DNA from: Rugamonas sp. | GTDB lineage: Bacteria > Pseudomonadota > Gammaproteobacteria > Burkholderiales > Burkholderiaceae_D | Direction of reading: 5' to 3' | Assembly: GCF_025354735.1 (NCBI RefSeq) | Contig: NZ_JANXMI010000312.1 | Location: 1 to 64,000, forward strand | DNA: 64,000 bases | In this document: in pieces, positions 5,754 through 62,762 of the stretch | Layout: each line of letters starts with the position of its first letter | How positions within the stretch are numbered: the first letter of the stretch is position 1 | Notes under the pieces: generated by a model | Seen by the model: only the letters and a program-made list of their open reading frames with translations | What the model was told of the DNA's origin: nothing | The model's database searches: none | Translations under genes and position numbers: made by a program

Positions 5754-7742
5754 TCAGCGGCCGCCGAAGCTCGTTTCCTGTTCTTCCTGCGCGCTGTAGC
5801 CTTTCGGCGCGACGCTGCCCAGGCGCGCCTTGAGCGACTGCGGCCGGCCTTCGAACAAGGCCGCGTAGTAGGCCGTGTTCGACATCACGTTGCGCACATA
5901 GGCGCGGGTTTCGACGTAGGGGATGGACTCGATGAAGATGGCGCTTTCCATCGGCCCGGTCAGCGTCGAGCGCCAGGTGCGCAGCCGTCCGGGGCCGGCG
6001 TTGTAGGCGGCCGTGGCCAGCACTTCGGAGCCGTCCATATTCCCCAGCACGATGTTCATATAGCTGGCGCCGAGCAGGATGTTGGTGTGGACGTCGCTCA
6101 GCATGTCCTGCACGAAGTCGGCCAGGCCGATTTTTTTCGCGACCCAGCGCCCGGTCGACGGCATCACCTGCATCAGGCCCGAGGCGCCGACGCTCGATTG
6201 CGCGTCCATGATGAAGCGCGACTCTTGCCGGATCAAGCCATAGACCCAGGCCTGGTCCAGGCCCAGCGTCTGCGTGGTGCTGCGCATGATGTCGTTGTGC
6301 GGCGCCGGGAAGCGCTGCGTGTAGTCGACCTGGATGCGGGTGCGCTCCGAGGTGCTGACCATGCGGTCCAGGATATTGTTCTGGCGCGCGAATTCGGCGG
6401 CGGCCAGGTGTTCGCGTTCGCTCAGGCCGCGCAGCGACCAGTTCCACTCGCGCGTGCCCTCGAAGCGCAGCCGCATGCCGAAGAATTTGAGCGCGCGCTG
6501 GAAGCCGGGATTGGCGGCGATGGGCGCGATTTCGGCCGCCGAGATGGGCGCGCCGGCCGGCGGGATCGTGATGAGGCGGCCGGTTTCCTCCAGCGCCAGC
6601 TGGCCGTAGAAATTCGACTGCTCGGCGATGCCGCGGAACAGCTGCAGCGCCTCGCCGCTGGCGGCGCCGGTCGGGCCGGTGGCGCCGTCGGCCATCAGCG
6701 CGCGGCCCAGCCAGTAGGTCCACGCCGGATCGGCGCGCAGCGCGGGCGGCATGGCGCGGATGTCGGCCTTCACTTCCTGCCAGTCGCCGTCGCGCAGCGC
6801 GTAGCGCGTCTTCCATTGCAGGGCGTCGTTCGACAGCGGCGCGCCGCTGGACTTGCGCCAGTAGCCGCGCGTTTCCGGCGCCAGCGTGTACGACGATTGC
6901 AGCGCGATGTTGGCCCAGCCCTGGGCCTGTTCCTGCGCGCTCAGGCGCGGCGCCGCCTTGTTCAGCGCCAGCACCGCCAGCTTGACGCTGGTCTTGGCCA
7001 TGCGGCCGATGGCGACCAGGTAAATTTCGTGTTCGGCCTGGCCGCCGCCCATGCCCTTGGCCAGCGCGATGGCCGGCAAGTCGATCGCCTGCGCGATTTT
7101 TTTCTCGGAGCCGCCCAGCAGCGCCATGGCGCGCCGGGCCGGCCCCGTGGCGTCGAATTCGCCGGCCAGGCGCACCTGCGTCCACAGGTCGTTGTTGTCG
7201 AACTGGCCGGCCAGCGCCAGCGTGGCGATCAGGCCGGAGCAGCCGTCGCCGTAGAGGGGCGGATTGACCAGCAGCGCGCGCGCCTCGTCGGCCACCTTCT
7301 GGCCCTTGAGCGCGCGCGATTGCAGCGCGTAGCATTTGACCTGGATGTCGTCGTTGAGCGCGAACAGCGGCAGCTGCTCGTCGAAGGTGGCCCAGTCGCG
7401 GCGCCGGCCCAGGTCCAGCAGCCAGTCGTTGCGCAGGCGGTCGGCGATGGCGCTGCCGGCGTAGCGGTTCAGGAAATCGCGCAGGTCGGCGTAGCTGACG
7501 TCACGGAAGTGGGATTTGAGCCGATAATAGTCGACATAGGACGGGATGGAATACGCGCCCAGTTTGGCCGCGTAAAAGTCGGCCTTGACGGCATCGTCCT
7601 GGCGCACGGCGTCGCGCAGCAGCAGGAAGGCGTCATCGTCCTTGCGGGCGTCGATTGCGCTGTCGTCGGCGTGGGCCAGACCGGTGGCGACGCTGGCCAA
7701 TACGACGGCGGCGCCGGCTATCCATTTCGAAGCGTAAATCAA
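5754..7742 (-). CDS. soluble lytic murein transglycosylase (Slt-like)
   Basis: ESRFIMDAQSSVGASGLMQVMPSTGRWVAKKIG...AAYNAGPGRLRTWRS: SLT domain with signal peptide and long alpha-helical N-terminal region. Confidence 0.9.
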   Translation of the reverse strand: MIYASKWIAGAAVVLASVATGLAHADDSAIDARKDDDAFLLLRDAVRQDDAVKADFYAAKLGAYSIPSYVDYYRLKSHFRDVSYADLRDFLNRYAGSAIADRLRNDWLLDLGRRRDWATFDEQLPLFALNDDIQVKCYALQSRALKGQKVADEARALLVNPPLYGDGCSGLIATLALAGQFDNNDLWTQVRLAGEFDATGPARRAMALLGGSEKKIAQAIDLPAIALAKGMGGGQAEHEIYLVAIGRMAKTSVKLAVLALNKAAPRLSAQEQAQGWANIALQSSYTLAPETRGYWRKSSGAPLSNDALQWKTRYALRDGDWQEVKADIRAMPPALRADPAWTYWLGRALMADGATGPTGAASGEALQLFRGIAEQSNFYGQLALEETGRLITIPPAGAPISAAEIAPIAANPGFQRALKFFGMRLRFEGTREWNWSLRGLSEREHLAAAEFARQNNILDRMVSTSERTRIQVDYTQRFPAPHNDIMRSTTQTLGLDQAWVYGLIRQESRFIMDAQSSVGASGLMQVMPSTGRWVAKKIGLADFVQDMLSDVHTNILLGASYMNIVLGNMDGSEVLATAAYNAGPGRLRTWRSTLTGPMESAIFIESIPYVETRAYVRNVMSNTAYYAALFEGRPQSLKARLGSVAPKGYSAQEEQETSFGGR

Positions 7743-8405: not shown

Positions 8406-8460
8406 ACGGGGTCAGACCACGGTTTCGAATGAATCTCTCGAAACCGTGGTCTGACCCCGT
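8406..8460. repeat. perfect 23-bp inverted repeat (REP-like hairpin)
   Basis: ACGGGGTCAGACCACGGTTTCGA - ATGAATCTC - TCGAAACCGTGGTCTGACCCCGT: 23-bp arms, 9-nt loop. Confidence 0.9.
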
Positions 8461-12044: not shown

Positions 12045-12119
12045 ATGAACAACGATGATTTCCGACGCAAATACCTGCCCCCCAATCCGCCGCCGCCACT
12101 ACCGGCGCGCCCCAAATAA
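12045..12119 (+). CDS. 24-aa proline-rich micro-ORF
   Basis: MNNDDFRRKYLPPNPPPPLPARPK*. Strong RBS AGGAG overlaps the stop codon of the upstream ORF. Not in the supplied ORF track because of its length. Confidence 0.6.
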   Translation: MNNDDFRRKYLPPNPPPPLPARPK

Positions 12120-12128
12120 ACGGCCCAT

Positions 12129-12167
12129 GCAAAACGCCCCGGATCGCGAGATGCCGGGGCGTTTTGC
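12129..12167. terminator. bidirectional intrinsic terminator
   Basis: GCAAAACGCCCCGG - ATCGCGAGATG - CCGGGGCGTTTTGC: 14-bp stem with A-tract and T-tract, between two convergent units. Confidence 0.85.
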
Positions 12168-53681: not shown

Positions 53682-53757
<76 letters not shown>

Positions 53758-53826: not shown

Positions 53827-53933
53827 TTGTCTCACGCCAAGTTATGCAATAGCATGGGATACCACCAAAAATATGGTTTTTTTGTTGGTATCAACAGATC
53901 GCAAAAAACCGGATACCAACAGGGGGCGAGGCA

Positions 53934-55163
53934 ATGGCACTGACAGACACAGGCATAAGACAGGTAAAGCACAGCGGTGCGCCTGCCGGCGACAAGCTTA
54001 GCGACGGCGGCGGGATGTATTTGCTAGTAACGCCGACAGCAAAATGCTGGCGTATGAATTACAGATTTAACGGCAAGCAGAAGACTCTAGCGCTGGGAAT
54101 ATACCCTGCCGTATCGCTAGCCCAAGCAAGAGCCCGTCGCGAGGAAGCCCGCAAGCTGCTAGCGTCGATCCCCCCTATCGACCCAAGCCAAGCCAAACGC
54201 GAAGAAAAACTGGCCAGGACCACTGCAGCGGAACAAACCTTTGAAGTGGTGGCGCGTCAGTGGCTTGCCAAGACAGCGGCAGACAGAGGCGCCAATACCC
54301 AAGAAAAAGTTACCTCTGCTTTGGAAAACAATGTGTTCCCTTTCTTGGGCAAGACCGCCATATCCACAATCAAGCCATTAGACGTACTGGCAACAGTTCA
54401 AAAAATGGAGGCACGAGGTGCTATCGACACAGCTCACCGGGTCAAACAAATATGTGGGCAGGTATTCCGGTATGCAGTAGCCGCTGGATTGGCTGAGCGC
54501 GATGTGACAACAGATCTCAAAGGGGCACTGTCAGCAGTCCCCAGATCACATTTTGCCGCAATCACGGAACCCAAGCAAGCCGGCGAACTGATGCGCGCCA
54601 TCTTTGACTACAACGGTTTCCCGGCGGCGGTCGCCGCGCTCAAAATGGCCCCGCTGGTGTTCGTGCGCCCGGGTGAACTCCGCACTGCCGAATGGAGCGA
54701 AATCGATCTTGATGCGGCAGAGTGGCGCATACCTGCCAGCAAGATGAAAATGAAGGTTGAACACATGGTACCGTTGTCAGTGCAAGCGGTCGAGATACTG
54801 CGTACGCTATACCCCGTAACCGGACATGGCAAGTATGTCTTCCCTAGCCTGCGCAGCAAGACGTGTATGAGCGAAAACACGATCAACGCAGCATTACGAG
54901 GCATGGGTTACGCCAAAGGTGTAATGACCGGCCACGGCTTCCGAGCAATGGCTCGCACTATCATGGATGAAGTGCTGGAAGAGCGTATCGACCTGATTGA
55001 ACACCAGCTTGCACATGCCGTTAAAGATGTGAATGGCCGCGCATACAATCGTACGGCACACCTTCCCGCACGGCGCGAGATGATGCAACGCTGGGCCGAT
55101 TACTTGGACAAATTACGTATTGGTGGCGAAATAATCCGGTTGCGAGCATGGGGTGAACAATGA
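53934..55163 (+). CDS. tyrosine-type site-specific integrase (P4 family, DUF4102 arm domain)
   Basis: MALTDTGIRQVKHSGAPAGDKLSDGGGMYLLVTPTAKCWRMNYRFNGKQKTLALGIYPAVSLAQARARREEARKLL; VRPGELRTAEWSEID, HGFRAMARTIMDE, LAHAVKD..RAYNRTAHLPARREMMQRWADYLD. Confidence 0.95.
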   Translation: MALTDTGIRQVKHSGAPAGDKLSDGGGMYLLVTPTAKCWRMNYRFNGKQKTLALGIYPAVSLAQARARREEARKLLASIPPIDPSQAKREEKLARTTAAEQTFEVVARQWLAKTAADRGANTQEKVTSALENNVFPFLGKTAISTIKPLDVLATVQKMEARGAIDTAHRVKQICGQVFRYAVAAGLAERDVTTDLKGALSAVPRSHFAAITEPKQAGELMRAIFDYNGFPAAVAALKMAPLVFVRPGELRTAEWSEIDLDAAEWRIPASKMKMKVEHMVPLSVQAVEILRTLYPVTGHGKYVFPSLRSKTCMSENTINAALRGMGYAKGVMTGHGFRAMARTIMDEVLEERIDLIEHQLAHAVKDVNGRAYNRTAHLPARREMMQRWADYLDKLRIGGEIIRLRAWGEQ

Positions 55164-56035
55164 CTCCACACACCCGGCGCGGATCGATCTGGCAATATAT
55201 TCCCTTAGTCACTCAGAACGTATTCCATTTCAGAAATCCTGATGAGGATGAGAACAGCGTACCTGCCTTGATCTTAGCTGCAGACTTACCTGAGCTTCTG
55301 TTTTCCATCATTTATAACATAAAGACTGCGGAAGATAGGGTGCGGTACCAGCGGATTTCTCCAACGGCTATCGACTCACTAACATATAAGGTTGCATCAC
55401 TAATTGATCAGGGCCGGCTCGCGGTCTACCTCCGCGACACACGTATGCGTGTGGACGAGTATACACCCGAACATGAATCGGATGTTTTCCTAGTAAGACT
55501 GGATGACGTCGAACGTATTTGTTCCACTGAAGGTATAGAGATTTCTCACAATATCGCGACAGGCCGCGCGACGATTGATTACTCCCAAATAGCCGAATTC
55601 ATCGGCCAAGACGACCTCGTAGACGACCCGTTATTCACGAACTTTTCTGAAAACAATCATTCATTGAAATATGAATCAAACATCTCACAAGAAGAACAAA
55701 TATTTAATACGCTGGATTTTGCAAAAAAAGTAAGCTTCGAAAAATCGCGGACGACAGCAGAAGCGCGGGCGACAGCAGAAGAGGATGATGATAAACCCTT
55801 GGGAACTCGTGAGCGAAACAATGTTTTTAGAGCATTCGCAGGGGTCTGCGACATCGCCGGCATAGACTACAACCATGCCTCAGCCGCTGCGGCGACGATC
55901 GTCAAAAAAACTCAACTTCGCGGCCAGACAGTGTGCGAAACCACTATTGAAAAAATGTTAAAAGAGATACCAAAAGCATTGAGAAAAAAGCCGAAACCTA
56001 AAAAAACCCGAGTAGCTGCCGACGATACTGAGTAG
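55160..56035 (+). CDS. hypothetical island protein, translationally coupled to the integrase
   Basis: 291 aa ORF starting in an ATGA overlap with the integrase stop; C-terminal RERNNVFRAFAGVCDIAGIDY...CETTIEKMLKEIPKAL resembles a helical motif seen in island/satellite proteins. Confidence 0.75.
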   Translation: MTPHTRRGSIWQYIPLVTQNVFHFRNPDEDENSVPALILAADLPELLFSIIYNIKTAEDRVRYQRISPTAIDSLTYKVASLIDQGRLAVYLRDTRMRVDEYTPEHESDVFLVRLDDVERICSTEGIEISHNIATGRATIDYSQIAEFIGQDDLVDDPLFTNFSENNHSLKYESNISQEEQIFNTLDFAKKVSFEKSRTTAEARATAEEDDDKPLGTRERNNVFRAFAGVCDIAGIDYNHASAAAATIVKKTQLRGQTVCETTIEKMLKEIPKALRKKPKPKKTRVAADDTE

Positions 56036-56107
56036 TTGCCTATACTGATTAAAAAAAAAGGAGATAGTCTTCCCATCGCGCTATGGCGTATCACCAAGGG
56101 GGAAGAG

Positions 56108-56314
56108 ATGTCAAAGAGAGTCATTAGGATTAGTCAGCTCGCCAGCACTCCTGGCAAACCAGGCCTGCTGCCCGTCAGCCCAGCGACTATATGGCGTTGG
56201 GTACGTGCGGAGACGTTCCCACGTCCTTTTAAACTAAGCCAGTCCGTGACGGTCTGGGACTATTCGCAAGTTGAAGATTTCATTGCAAGACTGGCGGAAG
56301 GCGGCATTGAATGA
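56108..56314 (+). CDS. AlpA-like helix-turn-helix regulator
   Basis: MSKRVIRISQLASTPGKPGLLPVSPATIWRWVRAETFPRPFKLSQSVTVWDYSQVEDFIARL. Confidence 0.85.
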   Translation: MSKRVIRISQLASTPGKPGLLPVSPATIWRWVRAETFPRPFKLSQSVTVWDYSQVEDFIARLAEGGIE

Positions 56315-56730
56315 GCATTCAAAATCTCTTACTGAACCTGCAGCAAGTGAAGAAGAGAGGCAGAGACAAGTGGCAAGCGTGCTGCCCTGCTCATGACGAC
56401 ATACACCCGTCTTTGGCAATCAGGGAGCTAGATGATGGGCGGATCCTTTTGCACTGTTTCGCAGGGTGCGGCGCCGCCGAGGTTCTCGGCGCTATCGATA
56501 TGAATTTTTCCGATCTGTATCCAAAGCCCATCGGTGGAAATTTTTTACAGGGAACTCGGCGGCAATTCAGTGCTAGTGATGTGTTAGTAGGCATTGCATT
56601 TGAAACCCTTGTCGCTTGGCATTTTGCGAAACAACTTGCATCTAATCACGAGCTGTCGGACTTGGAACGCGAGAGGTTATTGACTTGTGCTCGCCGGCTG
56701 CAAAACGGAATGGAGGCCGCTCTTGGATAG
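56311..56730 (+). CDS. primase-type zinc-finger protein (CHC2-like)
   Basis: GRDKWQACCPAHDDIHPSLAIRELDDGRILLHCFAGCGAAEVLGAIDMNFSDLYP: Cx2H...Cx3C zinc site. Confidence 0.8.
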   Translation: MSIQNLLLNLQQVKKRGRDKWQACCPAHDDIHPSLAIRELDDGRILLHCFAGCGAAEVLGAIDMNFSDLYPKPIGGNFLQGTRRQFSASDVLVGIAFETLVAWHFAKQLASNHELSDLERERLLTCARRLQNGMEAALG

Positions 56731-56734
56731 ATCG

Positions 56735-58090
56735 ATGGATGCGGGCTCTACTCAATTAGATACCATTGCGCTGACGAAGGACACCTCTCGCAATGCGCGA
56801 GTAGTTAGATCCGTGGAGGCCGGGCTATCTCTGCTAGACGCGATGAATTCGGACGAGCAAGCCGTGCCGAATCGTGTCGTGAGATCTGCCAGTTCGGAGG
56901 ATCCTTCACCTGTTCACAGAAGCACGTCACCCAAGCCAACGGACGAACTCGGCGGGGTTCGAGTGGTCAATCTTCGTTGTGGCAGTCAAATCGTTCCGAT
57001 GCCCATAACTTGGCTATGGGACGGCTGGCTTCCGGCTGGGAAGTTGACAATCTTAGCCGGCGCCGCCGGCACGGGTAAGACCACGCTGGCACTTGGCCTT
57101 GCCGCCGCTTTGACCTCGCAAGGAAATTGGCCCGATGGGAAGCGCTGCGGCAAGAGTGGCAACATCCTTATTTGGTCGAGCGAAGATAATGCCGACGACA
57201 CGCTCGTCCCGCGGTTGTTGGCATCCGGCGCGGACATGGCCCGCTGTCATTTCATCGATGGCATTACGCTGGATAACGAAAGAATCCCTTTCGATCCCGC
57301 TCATGATATCCATGAACTATACAAAGCTGTCGAAAAAATTGGAGGCGTTTCTTTACTCATCATCGATCCTATCGTATCCGCAGTGTCTGGTGACATGCAT
57401 CGCGCCAATGACGTGCGTCGCGCTCTGCAAGCCGTGGTCGACTTCGCAGAGACACACAACTGCGCAGTTATCGGCATCACCCACTTTGCAAAAGGCGGCG
57501 CAGGTAAGGCTCCCGCAGACCGCGTCATCGGATCCCAAGCATTCGGCGCACTCGCACGCATGGTCCTAGTGGCGGCCAAAGAGGAAGGCGGCTCTCGACG
57601 GGTCTTGGCACGAGCCAAGTCAAACATAGCACCGGACGACGGAGGCATTGCCTATGCAATCGAGCTGTCGCCCATCATCAATGGCATCGAGGCCACCCAC
57701 GCAGTATGGGAAGGCACAATTGAAGGGACCGCGAGAGAAATTTTAGGTAACGTCGAGCACGACGATAGCTGTGAAGAATCGGGTGCTGCTGGTCTGGAGA
57801 ACTTGCTAATCGATCTTTTATCGGATCACGGTGGAAGAATGCCCGCCAAAATGGTAAAGGCTGAAGTAAGCGATGCGGGATATTCATGGACTGCAGCCAA
57901 CCGCGCAAAATCAAAAATTGGCATCGAGTCTTCCAAAGAACTGGGAACCAAGACGGGCGGATGGTACTGGTATTTGCCCAAGATACTAACTACAAGAATT
58001 CAGAAAATTGACAACAAACCAGAAGAATCCAGGCGTTTTTCTTTGGAATCTTGTGTTTCTTCTGATTGTCCTGCGATATTTTCCCCGTAG
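56735..58090 (+). CDS. RepA-like AAA ATPase/helicase
   Basis: LPAGKLTILAGAAGTGKTTLALGLAAAL (Walker A), ILIWSSEDNADDTLVPRLLASGAD, VSLLIIDPIVSAVSGD (Walker B), GITHFAKGGAGKAPADRVIGSQAFGALARMVLVA. Confidence 0.88.
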   Translation: MDAGSTQLDTIALTKDTSRNARVVRSVEAGLSLLDAMNSDEQAVPNRVVRSASSEDPSPVHRSTSPKPTDELGGVRVVNLRCGSQIVPMPITWLWDGWLPAGKLTILAGAAGTGKTTLALGLAAALTSQGNWPDGKRCGKSGNILIWSSEDNADDTLVPRLLASGADMARCHFIDGITLDNERIPFDPAHDIHELYKAVEKIGGVSLLIIDPIVSAVSGDMHRANDVRRALQAVVDFAETHNCAVIGITHFAKGGAGKAPADRVIGSQAFGALARMVLVAAKEEGGSRRVLARAKSNIAPDDGGIAYAIELSPIINGIEATHAVWEGTIEGTAREILGNVEHDDSCEESGAAGLENLLIDLLSDHGGRMPAKMVKAEVSDAGYSWTAANRAKSKIGIESSKELGTKTGGWYWYLPKILTTRIQKIDNKPEESRRFSLESCVSSDCPAIFSP

Positions 58091-58426
58091 TCTTAACACC
58101 CAAGTCCGCGCCCAATTTTGAGCAGGCATAGCTTTCCTCGTTGTGACTACCCCGGTCCGCTAATGTCTGGGGCCGGTCGCTCTGGAAGAGCGCCGGAGAC
58201 GCCGGGGGTGTCGCCCTGAACGGGCGCCAGGCCGCTAAAGTGAAAAATCGGCCCGCCGGTGCGCCCCCTTCGGGAGGGCAAGCGCCTGCACCCGGCGCAT
58301 AATATGAGTCGCCACCCGTTTGACGACGTTGACCACCTCTTTGCGGTGTATAGACGCTACTCGCCATAGTGGCAAGTTAGCGCTGGCGCGAGTGGGCAAG
58401 TGTTTCAGAGGCGGATGGAAGGAGGG

Positions 58427-58732
58427 TCATTCCTTAGCGGTCTTGAGAATGGCAGCTTTTTTGCGTGCGCTCGCGCGGTGGTATGCAACCATCAGCTCAG
58501 CCAGGCGATCGTCCTCCGTGTAAAAGTACGCCGTCGGAACGTTCAAAATTTCGGCTAACCGCTGGGCAATCAGGAAGTCGGCTTTATGCACACCCAATTC
58601 GTAGCGGTTCACTCGTGTGCTCGCCACGAACTGGTCCAGACCAGCCTGAATACCAAGTGTTTTTTGTGATAGTCCAGCTGCAGTACGAATTTCCTTTAAC
58701 CTGTGCCCCCAAAGCTCATTGGCATTCGCCAT
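58427..58732 (-). CDS. XRE family HTH transcriptional regulator
   Basis: LWGHRLKEIRTAAGLSQKTLGIQAGLDQFVASTRVNRYELGVHKADFLIAQRLAEILNVPTAYFYTEDD. Confidence 0.9.
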   Translation of the reverse strand: MANANELWGHRLKEIRTAAGLSQKTLGIQAGLDQFVASTRVNRYELGVHKADFLIAQRLAEILNVPTAYFYTEDDRLAELMVAYHRASARKKAAILKTAKE

Positions 58733-58860
58733 TTTGTAGTTCCTCGAAGTTTCGGAACTACGAGAATCGTTACTTACATGATTTCACGATACTACGTATG
58801 TCGTAGCTCGTGCTAATATGCAACTTAGCAAACCTACTTTCAAATTAAGGAAGCAAAGTC

Positions 58861-59907
58861 TTGAAACTGAAATTGACAATGACGATTATTTTCGCGGCAT
58901 CGCTGTCCGCGTGCGGTGGCGGTAGTGGTGGCCCATCGGGTCAAGTCGCGGCAGCGCCGCCAGTAACCACACCTGTTGTCACTCCTCCCACCGTAACGCC
59001 AGGTGATCTGCAAACGACAGTGCCGGTCCTAACCTACGCCTCAGATTCCCCTGAATTCCAGTTCGTCTCAGCGCTCAATGACTTTCGCTCCAACCTGGGC
59101 CTGGGCCTGTTGGCGCAGAATCCGCTGCTCGATACGGCGGCATCGAATCACTTGCACTACGTGATAATCAACGATATCAACAATGGCGGGACAGTCGATA
59201 TGTCGGCGATTAACACGACGTACAGCCGTCCGCAGTTTCATATCGAAGACGCCACCAAACCATTGTTCACTGGAGTACAGGAAATTGATCGTGCGCAGCA
59301 TGCTGGTTACGCAGGCGCATATGTTGGTGAAGAAGGCGCCTTCGGAGGCAATCAGGGTATTCTGGCTGCCTTCAACTCCCTAGTGGCTACCGTGTACCAC
59401 CGAACGGGCCTGATGTATCAATTCCCGCGCGAGATCGGCGTAGCAGTCGGGGCCGATGCGTCGCAAACAGTAGTGATGGAGTTAGGCTACCAGTCCAATG
59501 TACAACCTCAGTTCAACGCCAGCGATTTCCTAGGTACCTACCCGGCAGACAAACAGACGGCCGTTCCCTTGCATGCGGGGGTGGAAACGCCCAATCCATT
59601 CCCTGATCTGTCGACATCAAATGCAGACTTTCCGACCAAAACCAGTTTCCCGATATGCGTGGCGATCAAAGAAGGGCAGACGTTAACTGTGAATAGCTTC
59701 ACCGTTACCGAAGCGGGCCAGGCAATGCCGTTGGAGGCCCGCCTGATGACGAAAGCAAATGATCCCAATGCATACCTTGCGTCGAATATTGCCTTTATCA
59801 TTGGCAAGATCCCGTTCAAAACTAATACGACCTACAACGTAGTTTTTTCCGGTAATGCCGGCGCCACCACAGTCAGTAAGACATGGAGTTTCACCACGGG
59901 TAGCTAG
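58861..59907 (+). CDS. CAP-domain (SCP-like) lipoprotein
   Basis: Lipobox-like MKLKLTMTIIFAASLSACGGGSGG; NDFRSNLGLGLLAQNPLLDTAASNHLHYVIIND...IGVAVGADASQTVVMELGY. Confidence 0.8.
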   Translation: MKLKLTMTIIFAASLSACGGGSGGPSGQVAAAPPVTTPVVTPPTVTPGDLQTTVPVLTYASDSPEFQFVSALNDFRSNLGLGLLAQNPLLDTAASNHLHYVIINDINNGGTVDMSAINTTYSRPQFHIEDATKPLFTGVQEIDRAQHAGYAGAYVGEEGAFGGNQGILAAFNSLVATVYHRTGLMYQFPREIGVAVGADASQTVVMELGYQSNVQPQFNASDFLGTYPADKQTAVPLHAGVETPNPFPDLSTSNADFPTKTSFPICVAIKEGQTLTVNSFTVTEAGQAMPLEARLMTKANDPNAYLASNIAFIIGKIPFKTNTTYNVVFSGNAGATTVSKTWSFTTGS

Positions 59908-59935
59908 CCCAAACTTGAAATTGAGGAAAAATGAT

Positions 59936-60286
59936 ATGAACGAATATGCTATTGCAACCCAACTAGCCATTACATTGGCTGCCTTGACATCTATTCTTGC
60001 GGTGTCTATCCGATTGGTTCTTTCAAAGTATCGGCCGTCAAGTTACTCAACGGACTTTTCAATTGAAATATATGAACACCAGAGAATAGATGTGAAAAAT
60101 TACGAAATAAGCCGCGCAACTGGACACATCGCGCAGTACACCAAGCCAAATTTCAAAAAAAATAACTTAGAAGAAGACCAGATTTCGAGATCTTTTAAAA
60201 TCGACACCATGGTCCCACTTGATGATCTTGCGACTGAAATGGGCTTGCACGCTGCTGGCTTAGCCAATAGTTACTTCATAGAATAA
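59936..60286 (+). CDS. small membrane-anchored hypothetical protein
   Basis: 116 aa; N-terminal TM (IATQLAITLAALTSILAVSIRLVL), soluble C-terminus; RBS-like GAGGAAAA upstream. Confidence 0.6.
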   Translation: MNEYAIATQLAITLAALTSILAVSIRLVLSKYRPSSYSTDFSIEIYEHQRIDVKNYEISRATGHIAQYTKPNFKKNNLEEDQISRSFKIDTMVPLDDLATEMGLHAAGLANSYFIE

Positions 60287-60330
60287 AAACAATACCGTCC
60301 ATGACAACGATGTGACTGATGGAGATTTGA

Positions 60331-60477
60331 ATGATCAATAAACTACTAAAGGACATTTTTCTGGAAGTGAAAAAACAGAGTTTGAAGGAAAGTCTTCAAA
60401 TTTACTTTGAGCCTGTATTTTTTTGTTTTAAATTAATGAAATTATTTCTTTTAAAGTTATACAAAATTCTCACTTGA
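60331..60477 (+). CDS. 48-aa hypothetical micro-ORF
   Basis: MINKLLKDIFLEVKKQSLKESLQIYFEPVFFCFKLMKLFLLKLYKILT*; GGAGA upstream; its 3' end overlaps the convergent ORF 60457..61320. Not in the ORF track. Confidence 0.35.
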   Translation: MINKLLKDIFLEVKKQSLKESLQIYFEPVFFCFKLMKLFLLKLYKILT

Positions 60478-61320
60478 CTCTTGGAAATACGCATCTGAAT
60501 AAAAAATATCTGTTATAATTTTTTTATCATAATCCCATATGCTGATCACAATCTTGAGATCGAAAATTTCTCGTTCGTGATTTCTAAGTTCGCACCACCG
60601 TTTTGAATTAACATCCCGAAACCATGGTGTGAGGCCAAAATGCTTAGCACGTTGCATTTCTTCGGAAAATCGAGCAGCCAATTTTCGACTTTCAAAGACC
60701 AAAAAATTCTCAATGCCATTGCGCTCGAAATATTCTAGTTTTTTAAAGAATTGATAATTTTCCTGTGCGCTAGATTTTCGAGTACGTTCCACTTCAATAT
60801 TTAACAATACATTATCATCGGACATTATAGAAATATCAGGACGAGTGTATTCATCATAGATAAATCCACGCATTACTCGATCTGTCCAAATTTCAAGCTT
60901 ACTTTGCCTAATTTTCAAATCATGCCTGTTCTTCAATAACCACAAAGCAGCCCATGATGCGATAAAGTCATGGCGCGATTGCCTTGACGCCTCCCTATCA
61001 ATTCGCCGGCCTATAAAGGGATATACTTGCTTCACAGTCCGCTGCGCCTTATGCGTCAAAACTAAAATTGTTGCAGGTCTATCATCGATAATGGCGAGTT
61101 TCGAGATGAACCATTTCTCATGAACCATCTGAGCTACCCAGTCGCGCTTAGATTGATCTAAATGGTAATTCACCATTTCGACTGTCGCCCATCCAAGTCT
61201 AGCAACAAACTGAATTACTGAATTAATTTTAAGCTGCCAGCGTTGCTCGGGAGTCCCAAGCCCCCATCGAGCGGCTATGGCTGCGGCGGTTCTCGGTTGT
61301 TTTATCGATTTAGGTTCCAT
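60457..61320 (-). CDS. hypothetical protein resembling replication-relaxation / MobC-like proteins
   Basis: 287 aa; winged-helix-like N-terminus (VIQFVARLGWATVEMVNYHL), SRHDFIASWAALWLLKNRHDL, then TRPDISIMSDDNVLLNIEVERTRKS. Confidence 0.6.
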   Translation of the reverse strand: MEPKSIKQPRTAAAIAARWGLGTPEQRWQLKINSVIQFVARLGWATVEMVNYHLDQSKRDWVAQMVHEKWFISKLAIIDDRPATILVLTHKAQRTVKQVYPFIGRRIDREASRQSRHDFIASWAALWLLKNRHDLKIRQSKLEIWTDRVMRGFIYDEYTRPDISIMSDDNVLLNIEVERTRKSSAQENYQFFKKLEYFERNGIENFLVFESRKLAARFSEEMQRAKHFGLTPWFRDVNSKRWCELRNHEREIFDLKIVISIWDYDKKIITDIFYSDAYFQESSENFV

Positions 61321-61465
61321 TTCACAATCTTAGCATTGAAGTTGTGCTTTGTGTTAGATTATGATAAATGCAACAGCATTATAATTTTGATGTTTTTTTA
61401 CATTGTTTTGAGGCTGATTTTCACAGAGCAATGCGATGATAGTTTTCAATAACCTATTCGATGGG

Positions 61466-61534
61466 GTTGTTAACAACTACATTGAGGTTGTTAACAACTA
61501 CGCCGAGGTTGTTAACAACCTCAATGTAGTTGTT
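61466..61534. repeat. array of three GTTGTTAACAAC palindromes with exact 21-bp period, nested in a 27-bp perfect inverted repeat
   Basis: Palindromes at 61466-61477, 61487-61498 and 61508-61519; AACAACTACATTGAGGTTGTTAACAAC (61472-61498) / TACGCCGAG / GTTGTTAACAACCTCAATGTAGTTGTT (61508-61534). Confidence 0.95.
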
Positions 61535-61649
61535 TTCGCACTTGGCTATTCCTGCGGTTCCAACGCTATGGCGCCAGTACGTTGGTAACAGTAGTTGTGA
61601 CCATTGTAATAAGATGAATAGGATCTTGATGGCATCCCTACGTCTTCAG

Positions 61650-61886
61650 TGTGTCGCGAAGCGACACACCTGCGCGGGTGAGTACTAACCGGCAAAGGCA
61701 GGCTCCGCCTGGCCGCTAGGGCGGCTTCCCTTTCCCTTTTCCGCTAGGGCGGAAATTAGCACGCACTCTTGCCTCCGGTTCGCTGCGCTCTCTCCGCGCC
61801 CCACAGGGGCTTGGCAGGTCCCCGCGAAGCGCGGGAAAGTGCCTTTTTTCCTCACTGGACGCTCGTCTAAAAAGCACTTTCCCGCG
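61650..61886. repeat. palindrome-rich noncoding block
   Basis: TGTGTCGC-GAA-GCGACACA; CAGGC-TCC-GCCTG; GCCGCTAGGGCGGC; TTCCGCTAGGGCGGAA; CGCGGGAAAGTGC...GCACTTTCCCGCG hairpin at 61830-61886. Confidence 0.8.
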
Positions 61887-61990
61887 TTTCACTTGGGGAC
61901 GGGCTCCGCCCCCAAACCAGACCGCGTCCTGGGGGTCGCTCTCGTCGCCGTTCGGCGCCTCATTCTGGTTCGGCTCCCCCTGCCCCGCAA

Positions 61991-62032
61991 GTCTTCGCTG
62001 TCGCTCGCTTGCGACGTCTTCGCTGCCGCTCG
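61991..62032. repeat. imperfect 17-bp direct repeat
   Basis: GTCTTCGCTGTCGCTCG (61991-62007) and GTCTTCGCTGCCGCTCG (62016-62032), 25-bp period. Confidence 0.7.
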
Positions 62033-62762
62033 ATTTTACGCGCTTCGCCGCAAAACAAATGCGATCACCCTCTTGCCGAATGCAGACTCTGGCACGGTTG
62101 ATCGCGCGTGCAAACTTCGGTTGACCGAATTGAAGGCTCTATGCTGGCAATGACGCGCGTGAGAGGGCACTGCTAAATGTCACTGTGCCGATCGGCCGTT
62201 TCCGCCCCTAAGCCGCCGCTCGCTTTGTATTATCTTTGAGCGAACAACCAATTCTTCAGCCATTGTCAGCAGTTGTCAGCCACCCTTCAAGCCATAATAT
62301 TGTCTTACTCTACGATTGGTTGCGAGGTTGACGGGCTATTTTCTCCGGAGAATCATCAAAGGTGGTAATGTGTCTACCGGATAACATGGGCTCTGCACAT
62401 GCCGAAGATCTTTGATATACACGTAGCCGTTAGACTGTGGATCCACACGTTGAATCAACGCTCTACTGCCCAAGTGTTCATTTGCACGTCGAAATGACCC
62501 AGTCCAATTGCCCCCCTCCAAGGTTTAGCACGTGCGCCCAACACTTGGAAGAATGCTCAGCATGGGTCATCCTGGGGTGCAACTATATGCCTGAGACTGA
62601 GGCAAAAATTCCTGCATATCGAAAGGCCGAATCAGCCTTTATGGCAGGAGAATTATGGTCTTTTACAGGCACCGAATGCTGCCGTTGCAGGCTGATCTTG
62701 ACAATTATCCGGCTCTGTATAGACTAAATCACGAATTGTTTTCTTGCAAAAGGAGTCGAAAG

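Follow-up and report, generated by a model that had tools for sequence, protein, structure and literature searches.

Genetic Setting of the Array

The DNA considered here (the window, the whole 64-kb stretch that was analysed) carries a mobile-element-like island that stands out by its base composition, with 50% GC over 53934–61320 compared with 63% GC for the window. From a tRNA-Thr gene inwards, the order is tyrosine integrase, a 291-aa protein of no assigned family, AlpA-like regulator, primase zinc ribbon and AAA_25 helicase, followed by an XRE regulator, a CAP-domain protein, a 143-aa open reading frame (ORF) and a 287-aa protein (Table 1), and this order is PICI/P4-satellite-like. In two congeners, islands are found at the same tRNA-Thr, bounded by 46–53-bp copies of the tRNA 3' end; the 80.6-kb contig studied here yielded no attR copy of this end, the best local match lying within the shuffled range.

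The subject of this analysis is an array of palindromes in the intergenic region upstream of a single leftward gene, the one encoding the 287-aa protein, from whose start codon it is separated by 145 bp. On the other side of the array, a largely non-coding stretch of 415 bp (61665–62079) is 91% identical to a sequence of one congener (L008, 8133–8546), which there precedes an AAA-ATPase/radical-SAM-like gene pair, in a setting otherwise unrelated to the window; the match was read as mobile or island-end sequence. The array was also considered as a set of integrase arm-type sites and rejected as such: the motif of the int end is TGTTGGTATC, of which the array has no copy. Apart from GTTGGTATCAAC at 53884, which is two letters off the palindrome GTTGTTAACAAC, the motifs at int, the XRE gene and the helicase gene show no close match to it.

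Table 1. Positions of the island features and of the elements of the palindrome array within the window.
Feature	Position	Strand	Basis or remark
tRNA-Thr, probable island insertion site	53682–53757	+	ARAGORN
TGTTGGTATC repeats in the tRNA-Thr–int interval; probably Xis sites or arm-type sites of the integrase	53858–53921		
Tyrosine integrase with Arm-DNA-bind_3 domain	53934–55163	+	Pfam
291-aa protein	55160–56035	+	No Pfam match
AlpA-like regulator	56036–56314	+	Pfam AlpA, barely over cut-off
Primase zinc-ribbon protein	56311–56730	+	
AAA_25/RepA-like helicase	56687–58090	+	
Degenerate direct/inverted ACAAGAATCC-like repeats, helicase 3' end	57992–58070		Probable island origin
XRE-family regulator	58427–58732	–	
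Inverted repeat GTAGTTCC-N10-GGAACTAC upstream of XRE gene	58736–58761		Differs from array motif
287-aa gene adjoining array	60457–61320	–	No significant family match
A/T-rich stretch between array and 287-aa gene	61330–61440	none	30.6% GC
50-aa ORF, rival coding reading	61436–61588	+	ORF list
Palindrome 1, GTTGTTAACAAC	61466–61477	none	Exact match
Palindrome 2, GTTGTTAACAAC	61487–61498	none	Exact match, 21 bp after palindrome 1
Palindrome 3, GTTGTTAACAAC	61508–61519	none	Exact match, 21 bp after palindrome 2
Left arm, perfect 27-bp inverted repeat	61472–61498	+	Computed
Right arm, perfect 27-bp inverted repeat	61508–61534	–	Ends in fourth half-site GTTGTT (61529–61534)

Array Architecture

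From 61466 to 61534 the sequence reads GTTGTTAACAAC-TACATTGAG-GTTGTTAACAAC-TACGCCGAG-GTTGTTAACAAC-CTCAATGTA-GTTGTT. The first-pass annotation had described three perfect 12-bp palindromes repeated every 21 bp inside a 27-bp inverted repeat, next to an A/T-rich stretch and 145 bp from the adjacent gene, and each element of this description was borne out: the palindromes are exact matches, the arms of the inverted repeat are 100% complementary, and both the base composition of the stretch and the distance to the start codon agree. The first and third spacers are exact reverse complements of each other, and this generates the perfect 27-bp inverted repeat with its 9-nt loop, and at the third palindrome the symmetry extends to GAGGTTGTTAACAACCTC. 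As a tandem repeat, the array has a period of 21 and 2.6–3.5 copies (TRF).

Perfect 12-bp palindromes number 57 in the window, so that single ones are common; the geometry of the array is far beyond chance. No perfect inverted repeat of the window has longer arms (spacer up to 30), no other place exceeds its 48-column self-identity over all lags from 15 to 39, and the three copies of GTTGTTAACAAC found in the 5.757 Mb of the genome are all within the array. As single-stranded DNA the hairpin has a predicted energy of –33.9 kcal/mol (z –8.8). The second strongest inverted repeat of the window in the same spacer range, a perfect one of 23 bp with a 9-nt loop, is located at 8406–8460.

The stretch between array and gene has a GC content within the lowest 0.5% of comparable stretches of the window, and includes a perfect TATAAT (61383–61378, minus strand) without a good –35 hexamer, the promoter being read by eye.

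The Adjoining 287-aa Protein

The gene next to the array had been labelled as MobC/replication-like, a label for which little backing was obtained, as its product gives no significant match in Pfam, NCBIfam, PHROG or PADLOC. By eye, the N-terminal part is wHTH-like and the C-terminal part displays a PD...ExE...K-like motif; a single-sequence AlphaFold model has a pLDDT of 33. Homologues are absent from plasmids, phages, viral contigs, the PDB, 75 congeners, 399 genomes of the order and 369 of the class, and one clear homologue, 34% identical, was found among 394 genomes of the family. The best Pfam match of this homologue is Replic_Relax (PF13814), with an E-value of 0.043 and a score of 14.3 bits that is below the gathering cut-off of 25.3, while the protein of the window has no PF13814 match at all. 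Judging from these sequences, the 287-aa protein is possibly a very distant MOBC/Replic_Relax relative.

The homologous gene contains a TGA stop and belongs to a locus (L013, 5214–8031) adjoined by AbiEi/AbiEii-like genes, on an island that is partly decayed and whose integrase gene is broken. The array was not found near it. The first-pass annotation had set two findings against its own reading, absence of the array near homologues of the adjacent gene and lack of protein binding or of origin or partition activity; the former, that is one half, is what is seen at the one clear homologue available.

Array-Like Sequences in Other Genomes

Scanning about 85,000 genomes with the pattern TTGTTAACAA-N11-TTGTTAACAA returned ten loci, of which one (L027) was annotated gene by gene and the rest were judged by their differing flanking sequence. 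The first-pass annotation had proposed such a search to see which gene always adjoins the 21-bp array; no constant neighbour was found among the loci inspected. In L027, a Methylotenera MAG, two exact copies of GTTGTTAACAAC with 21-bp spacing precede a leftward TonB receptor gene by about 170 bp; since the units are near-identical 21-bp tandem copies and the neighbour is a TonB receptor, the match may be a coincidence. L022 also looks like 21-bp tandem copies, and L029, read by eye, is a coding VVNNPPP heptad repeat. Among viral contigs the exact array has no match and its relaxed form has one. Three Clostridia contigs (L024, L028 and L031) share TTGTTAACAA-(N)ATAAGTAATA-TTGTTAACAA in almost identical form, and two of the three start within 40 bp of the pair, which is reminiscent of a repeat or recombination site. 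In the literature searched, neither the GTTGTTAACAAC motif nor its regulator appears in a relevant context, in agreement with the earlier remark that the motif was not recognized from a described system.

A Candidate Operator of the 287-aa Gene

Taken together, the sequence data are tentatively read as a cis-acting protein-binding platform of the satellite-like island, most likely one that serves the 287-aa gene as operator or upstream control site, an explanation that is preferred here with somewhat less than even confidence. Each palindrome would take one dimer, and, with the three sites two helical turns apart, the dimers would lie on one face of the DNA, where cooperative binding is possible. 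In this role the array would have its site centres about 100–142 bp upstream of the likely transcription start of this leftward gene. The exact periodicity and symmetry, the confinement of all three genomic copies of the palindrome to the array, and the intergenic position beside a stretch of low GC content with a perfect –10 hexamer are consistent with this proposal, as are the spacing of identical palindromes by whole helical turns close to a promoter (read by eye) and the pair of GTTGTTAACAAC in Methylotenera, which stands upstream of a leftward gene in a similar geometry. On the other hand, the sites are too distant upstream for a simple repressor, and conservation of the array with a regulator or target gene is not seen, either among the loci inspected from the genome scan or at the one clear homologue available, though that copy contains a stop codon, on an island in partial decay.

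As to the protein that would bind the array, the 287-aa protein itself is the most likely candidate once the island's other DNA-binding proteins are set aside: different repeats are found beside int, upstream of the XRE gene and, in the form of ACAAGAATCC-like sites, at the helicase end. The XRE regulator in particular was judged an unlikely binder, because the repeat upstream of its own gene differs from the array motif. AlpA, the 291-aa protein or a host protein are possible binders. Of the earlier proposal of a cooperative binding platform, which had left several functions open, the platform itself is the best-supported reading of the sequence, and the option of an origin has been weakened. 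If it does serve control or transfer, the array would help to show how satellite-like islands of this bacterial family regulate or move a poorly known gene.

The Array as a Possible Coding or Neutral Repeat

An unlikely explanation, which deserves to be weighed, is that the array has no role in cis, being either a coding heptad repeat or the product of neutral 21-bp slippage followed by template-switch correction at a palindrome. A period of 21 bp corresponds to seven codons, and the 50-aa ORF that spans the array is open, with the frame MIVFNNLFDG VVNNYIE VVNNYAE VVNNLNV, in which the array is read as heptads (VVNNYxE); the heptad repeat of L029 shows that a database match to the pattern can be coding, and copies that are perfect but have no relatives are as expected of a recent origin. 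Against the coding version, the ORF has no homologue in phages, plasmids or the 394 family genomes, an open frame on either strand is expected from a 21-bp period, and the reverse complementarity of the first and third spacers is left unexplained by a coding repeat, whereas template switching explains it. The coding or neutral reading stays in play because there is no second copy of the array for comparison.

Repeats at the Helicase Gene End and the Probable Origin

The island was compared with 13 related islands that have a helicase gene (L079–L091; helicase identity 33–72%). In at least 10 of these 13, short direct repeats with inverted copies behind them mark the helicase 3' end, in many cases reaching into the last codons of the gene; their motif, read by eye, varies by island (for example ACAAGAAAC in L079, CGAAGGGAGC in L080–L083, TTAAGRTGCTCA in L084, CCGAAGGTGCTCA in L088). 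When the several hundred 150-bp steps of each locus are ranked by their inverted repeats, the helicase 3' end is 1st to 5th in 11 of the 13 loci, L085 being weak among them, and 11th and 7th in L087 and L090, respectively. L088 has a second array (12060–12135 in helicase-oriented coordinates), located 2.5 kb downstream and of the same motif as the helicase-end array. The genome of L083 (G000:C328) contains a second related island, in which arrays of GAAGACCGCCA and CGAAGGGAGC follow the helicase gene back to back (about 6090–6290).

In the island of the window, the helicase 3' end is occupied by degenerate repeats, four ACAAGAATCC-like sites in 64 bp that form the densest cluster of this motif in the 64 kb. 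PICI origins directly follow the replication initiator gene on its 3' side and have two sets of iterons around an A/T-rich stretch (PMC6092414). The conserved position of the helicase-end arrays, its agreement with that of PICI origins and the dense ACAAGAATCC-like cluster together point to 57992–58070 as the probable origin of the island, and the helicase-end arrays of the related islands are predicted to be PICI-like origins with a motif that differs between islands. These arrays may matter more than the palindromes, as they predict replication origins and make a PICI-like life style directly testable.

The three-palindrome array, by contrast, is probably not the replication origin, and the iteron reading of the first-pass annotation loses ground since related islands have their iteron-like arrays at the helicase 3' end, where this island too has one in degenerate form. 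That it serves as the iterons of the excised island, or as a second cis-acting replication region like P4 crr, is accordingly rated as improbable. Such a role would suit an island with primase zinc-finger and AAA_25 helicase genes, an A/T-rich stretch adjoining the array and relatives with direct and inverted repeat arrays, and the second array of L088 would be a precedent for a second replication site. However, the palindromes lie 3.4 kb from the helicase gene, whose own end bears a different motif, and the two arrays of L088 share one motif while the two of this island do not match.

Mobilization and RNA Readings

It is also rather improbable that the array is an oriT, or part of one, nicked by the 287-aa protein as a distant MOBC-type relaxase for mobilization. 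Inverted repeats that adjoin a candidate relaxase gene match the usual oriT layout. The family to which the homologue has its sub-threshold match is recognized as the MobC relaxase family in streptococcal IMEs (PMC5357655). This argument is offset by the lack of such a match in the protein of the window itself, by the absence of the array near the homologue, by a comparison with the CloDF13 reading frames that gave no match (MobC itself was not identified in that record), and by the coupling-protein gene, which the MobC IMEs of PMC5357655 have and which was not seen on this island. A wider version, a long shot, is that the 287-aa protein, a wHTH and nuclease-like protein without a match in any of the libraries searched, makes up a so far undescribed mobilization or control module together with the array, which it would bind, and perhaps nick, to drive island transfer.

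Action of the hairpin as RNA, as a terminator or a small RNA, is highly improbable: the fold is strong on either strand, but the stem has about 37% GC and no proper U-tract, the Rfam matches all fall short of the gathering score (they are microRNA hairpin families and were rejected as generic long hairpins), and an RNA hairpin needs no perfect palindromic subunits at the DNA level.

Comparison With Known Systems

The island resembles the PICI/SaPI rep-ori systems (PMC6092414) in having int at its left end, alpA, primase-replication genes and iteron-like repeats. The PICI layout, with iterons immediately 3' of rep (PMC6092414), has a parallel in the arrays at the helicase ends of related islands and, in degenerate form, in 57992–58070 here. 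The array differs from a PICI origin in its distance of 3.4 kb from the helicase gene, its motif and its palindromic units; the position immediately 3' of the initiator gene is taken by other repeats, and in place of two iteron sets flanking an A/T-rich region, A/T-rich sequence is present on one side of the array.

P4 is a replicon with two sites, ori and crr, that is, two separated repeat arrays on a satellite-like element. The present island likewise has two separated arrays, but these have no common motif, so that L088 alone fits this model. In IncQ plasmids, the oriV of RSF1010 has about 3.5 iterons of 20 bp and works with a RepA helicase of the RepA/AAA_25 type. The array is similar in its about 3.5 units of 21 bp, its A/T-rich flank and the AAA_25 helicase of the element; it is dissimilar in its position, in that neither RepC nor an IncQ-type primase was seen on the island, and in that its units are palindromic and enclosed in one large inverted repeat.

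With the MOBC/Replic_Relax and oriT pairs of CloDF13 and of the streptococcal IMEs (PMC5357655), the locus shares an inverted repeat beside a possible wHTH and nuclease-like gene; it departs from them in that the 287-aa gene is below the Replic_Relax cut-off and no coupling protein was seen on the island. Finally, although no known regulator of GTTGTTAACAAC was found in the literature searched, the array is like the tandem operator arrays of dimeric repressors and activators in its identical palindromes, in their spacing by integral helical turns and in its position upstream of one gene.
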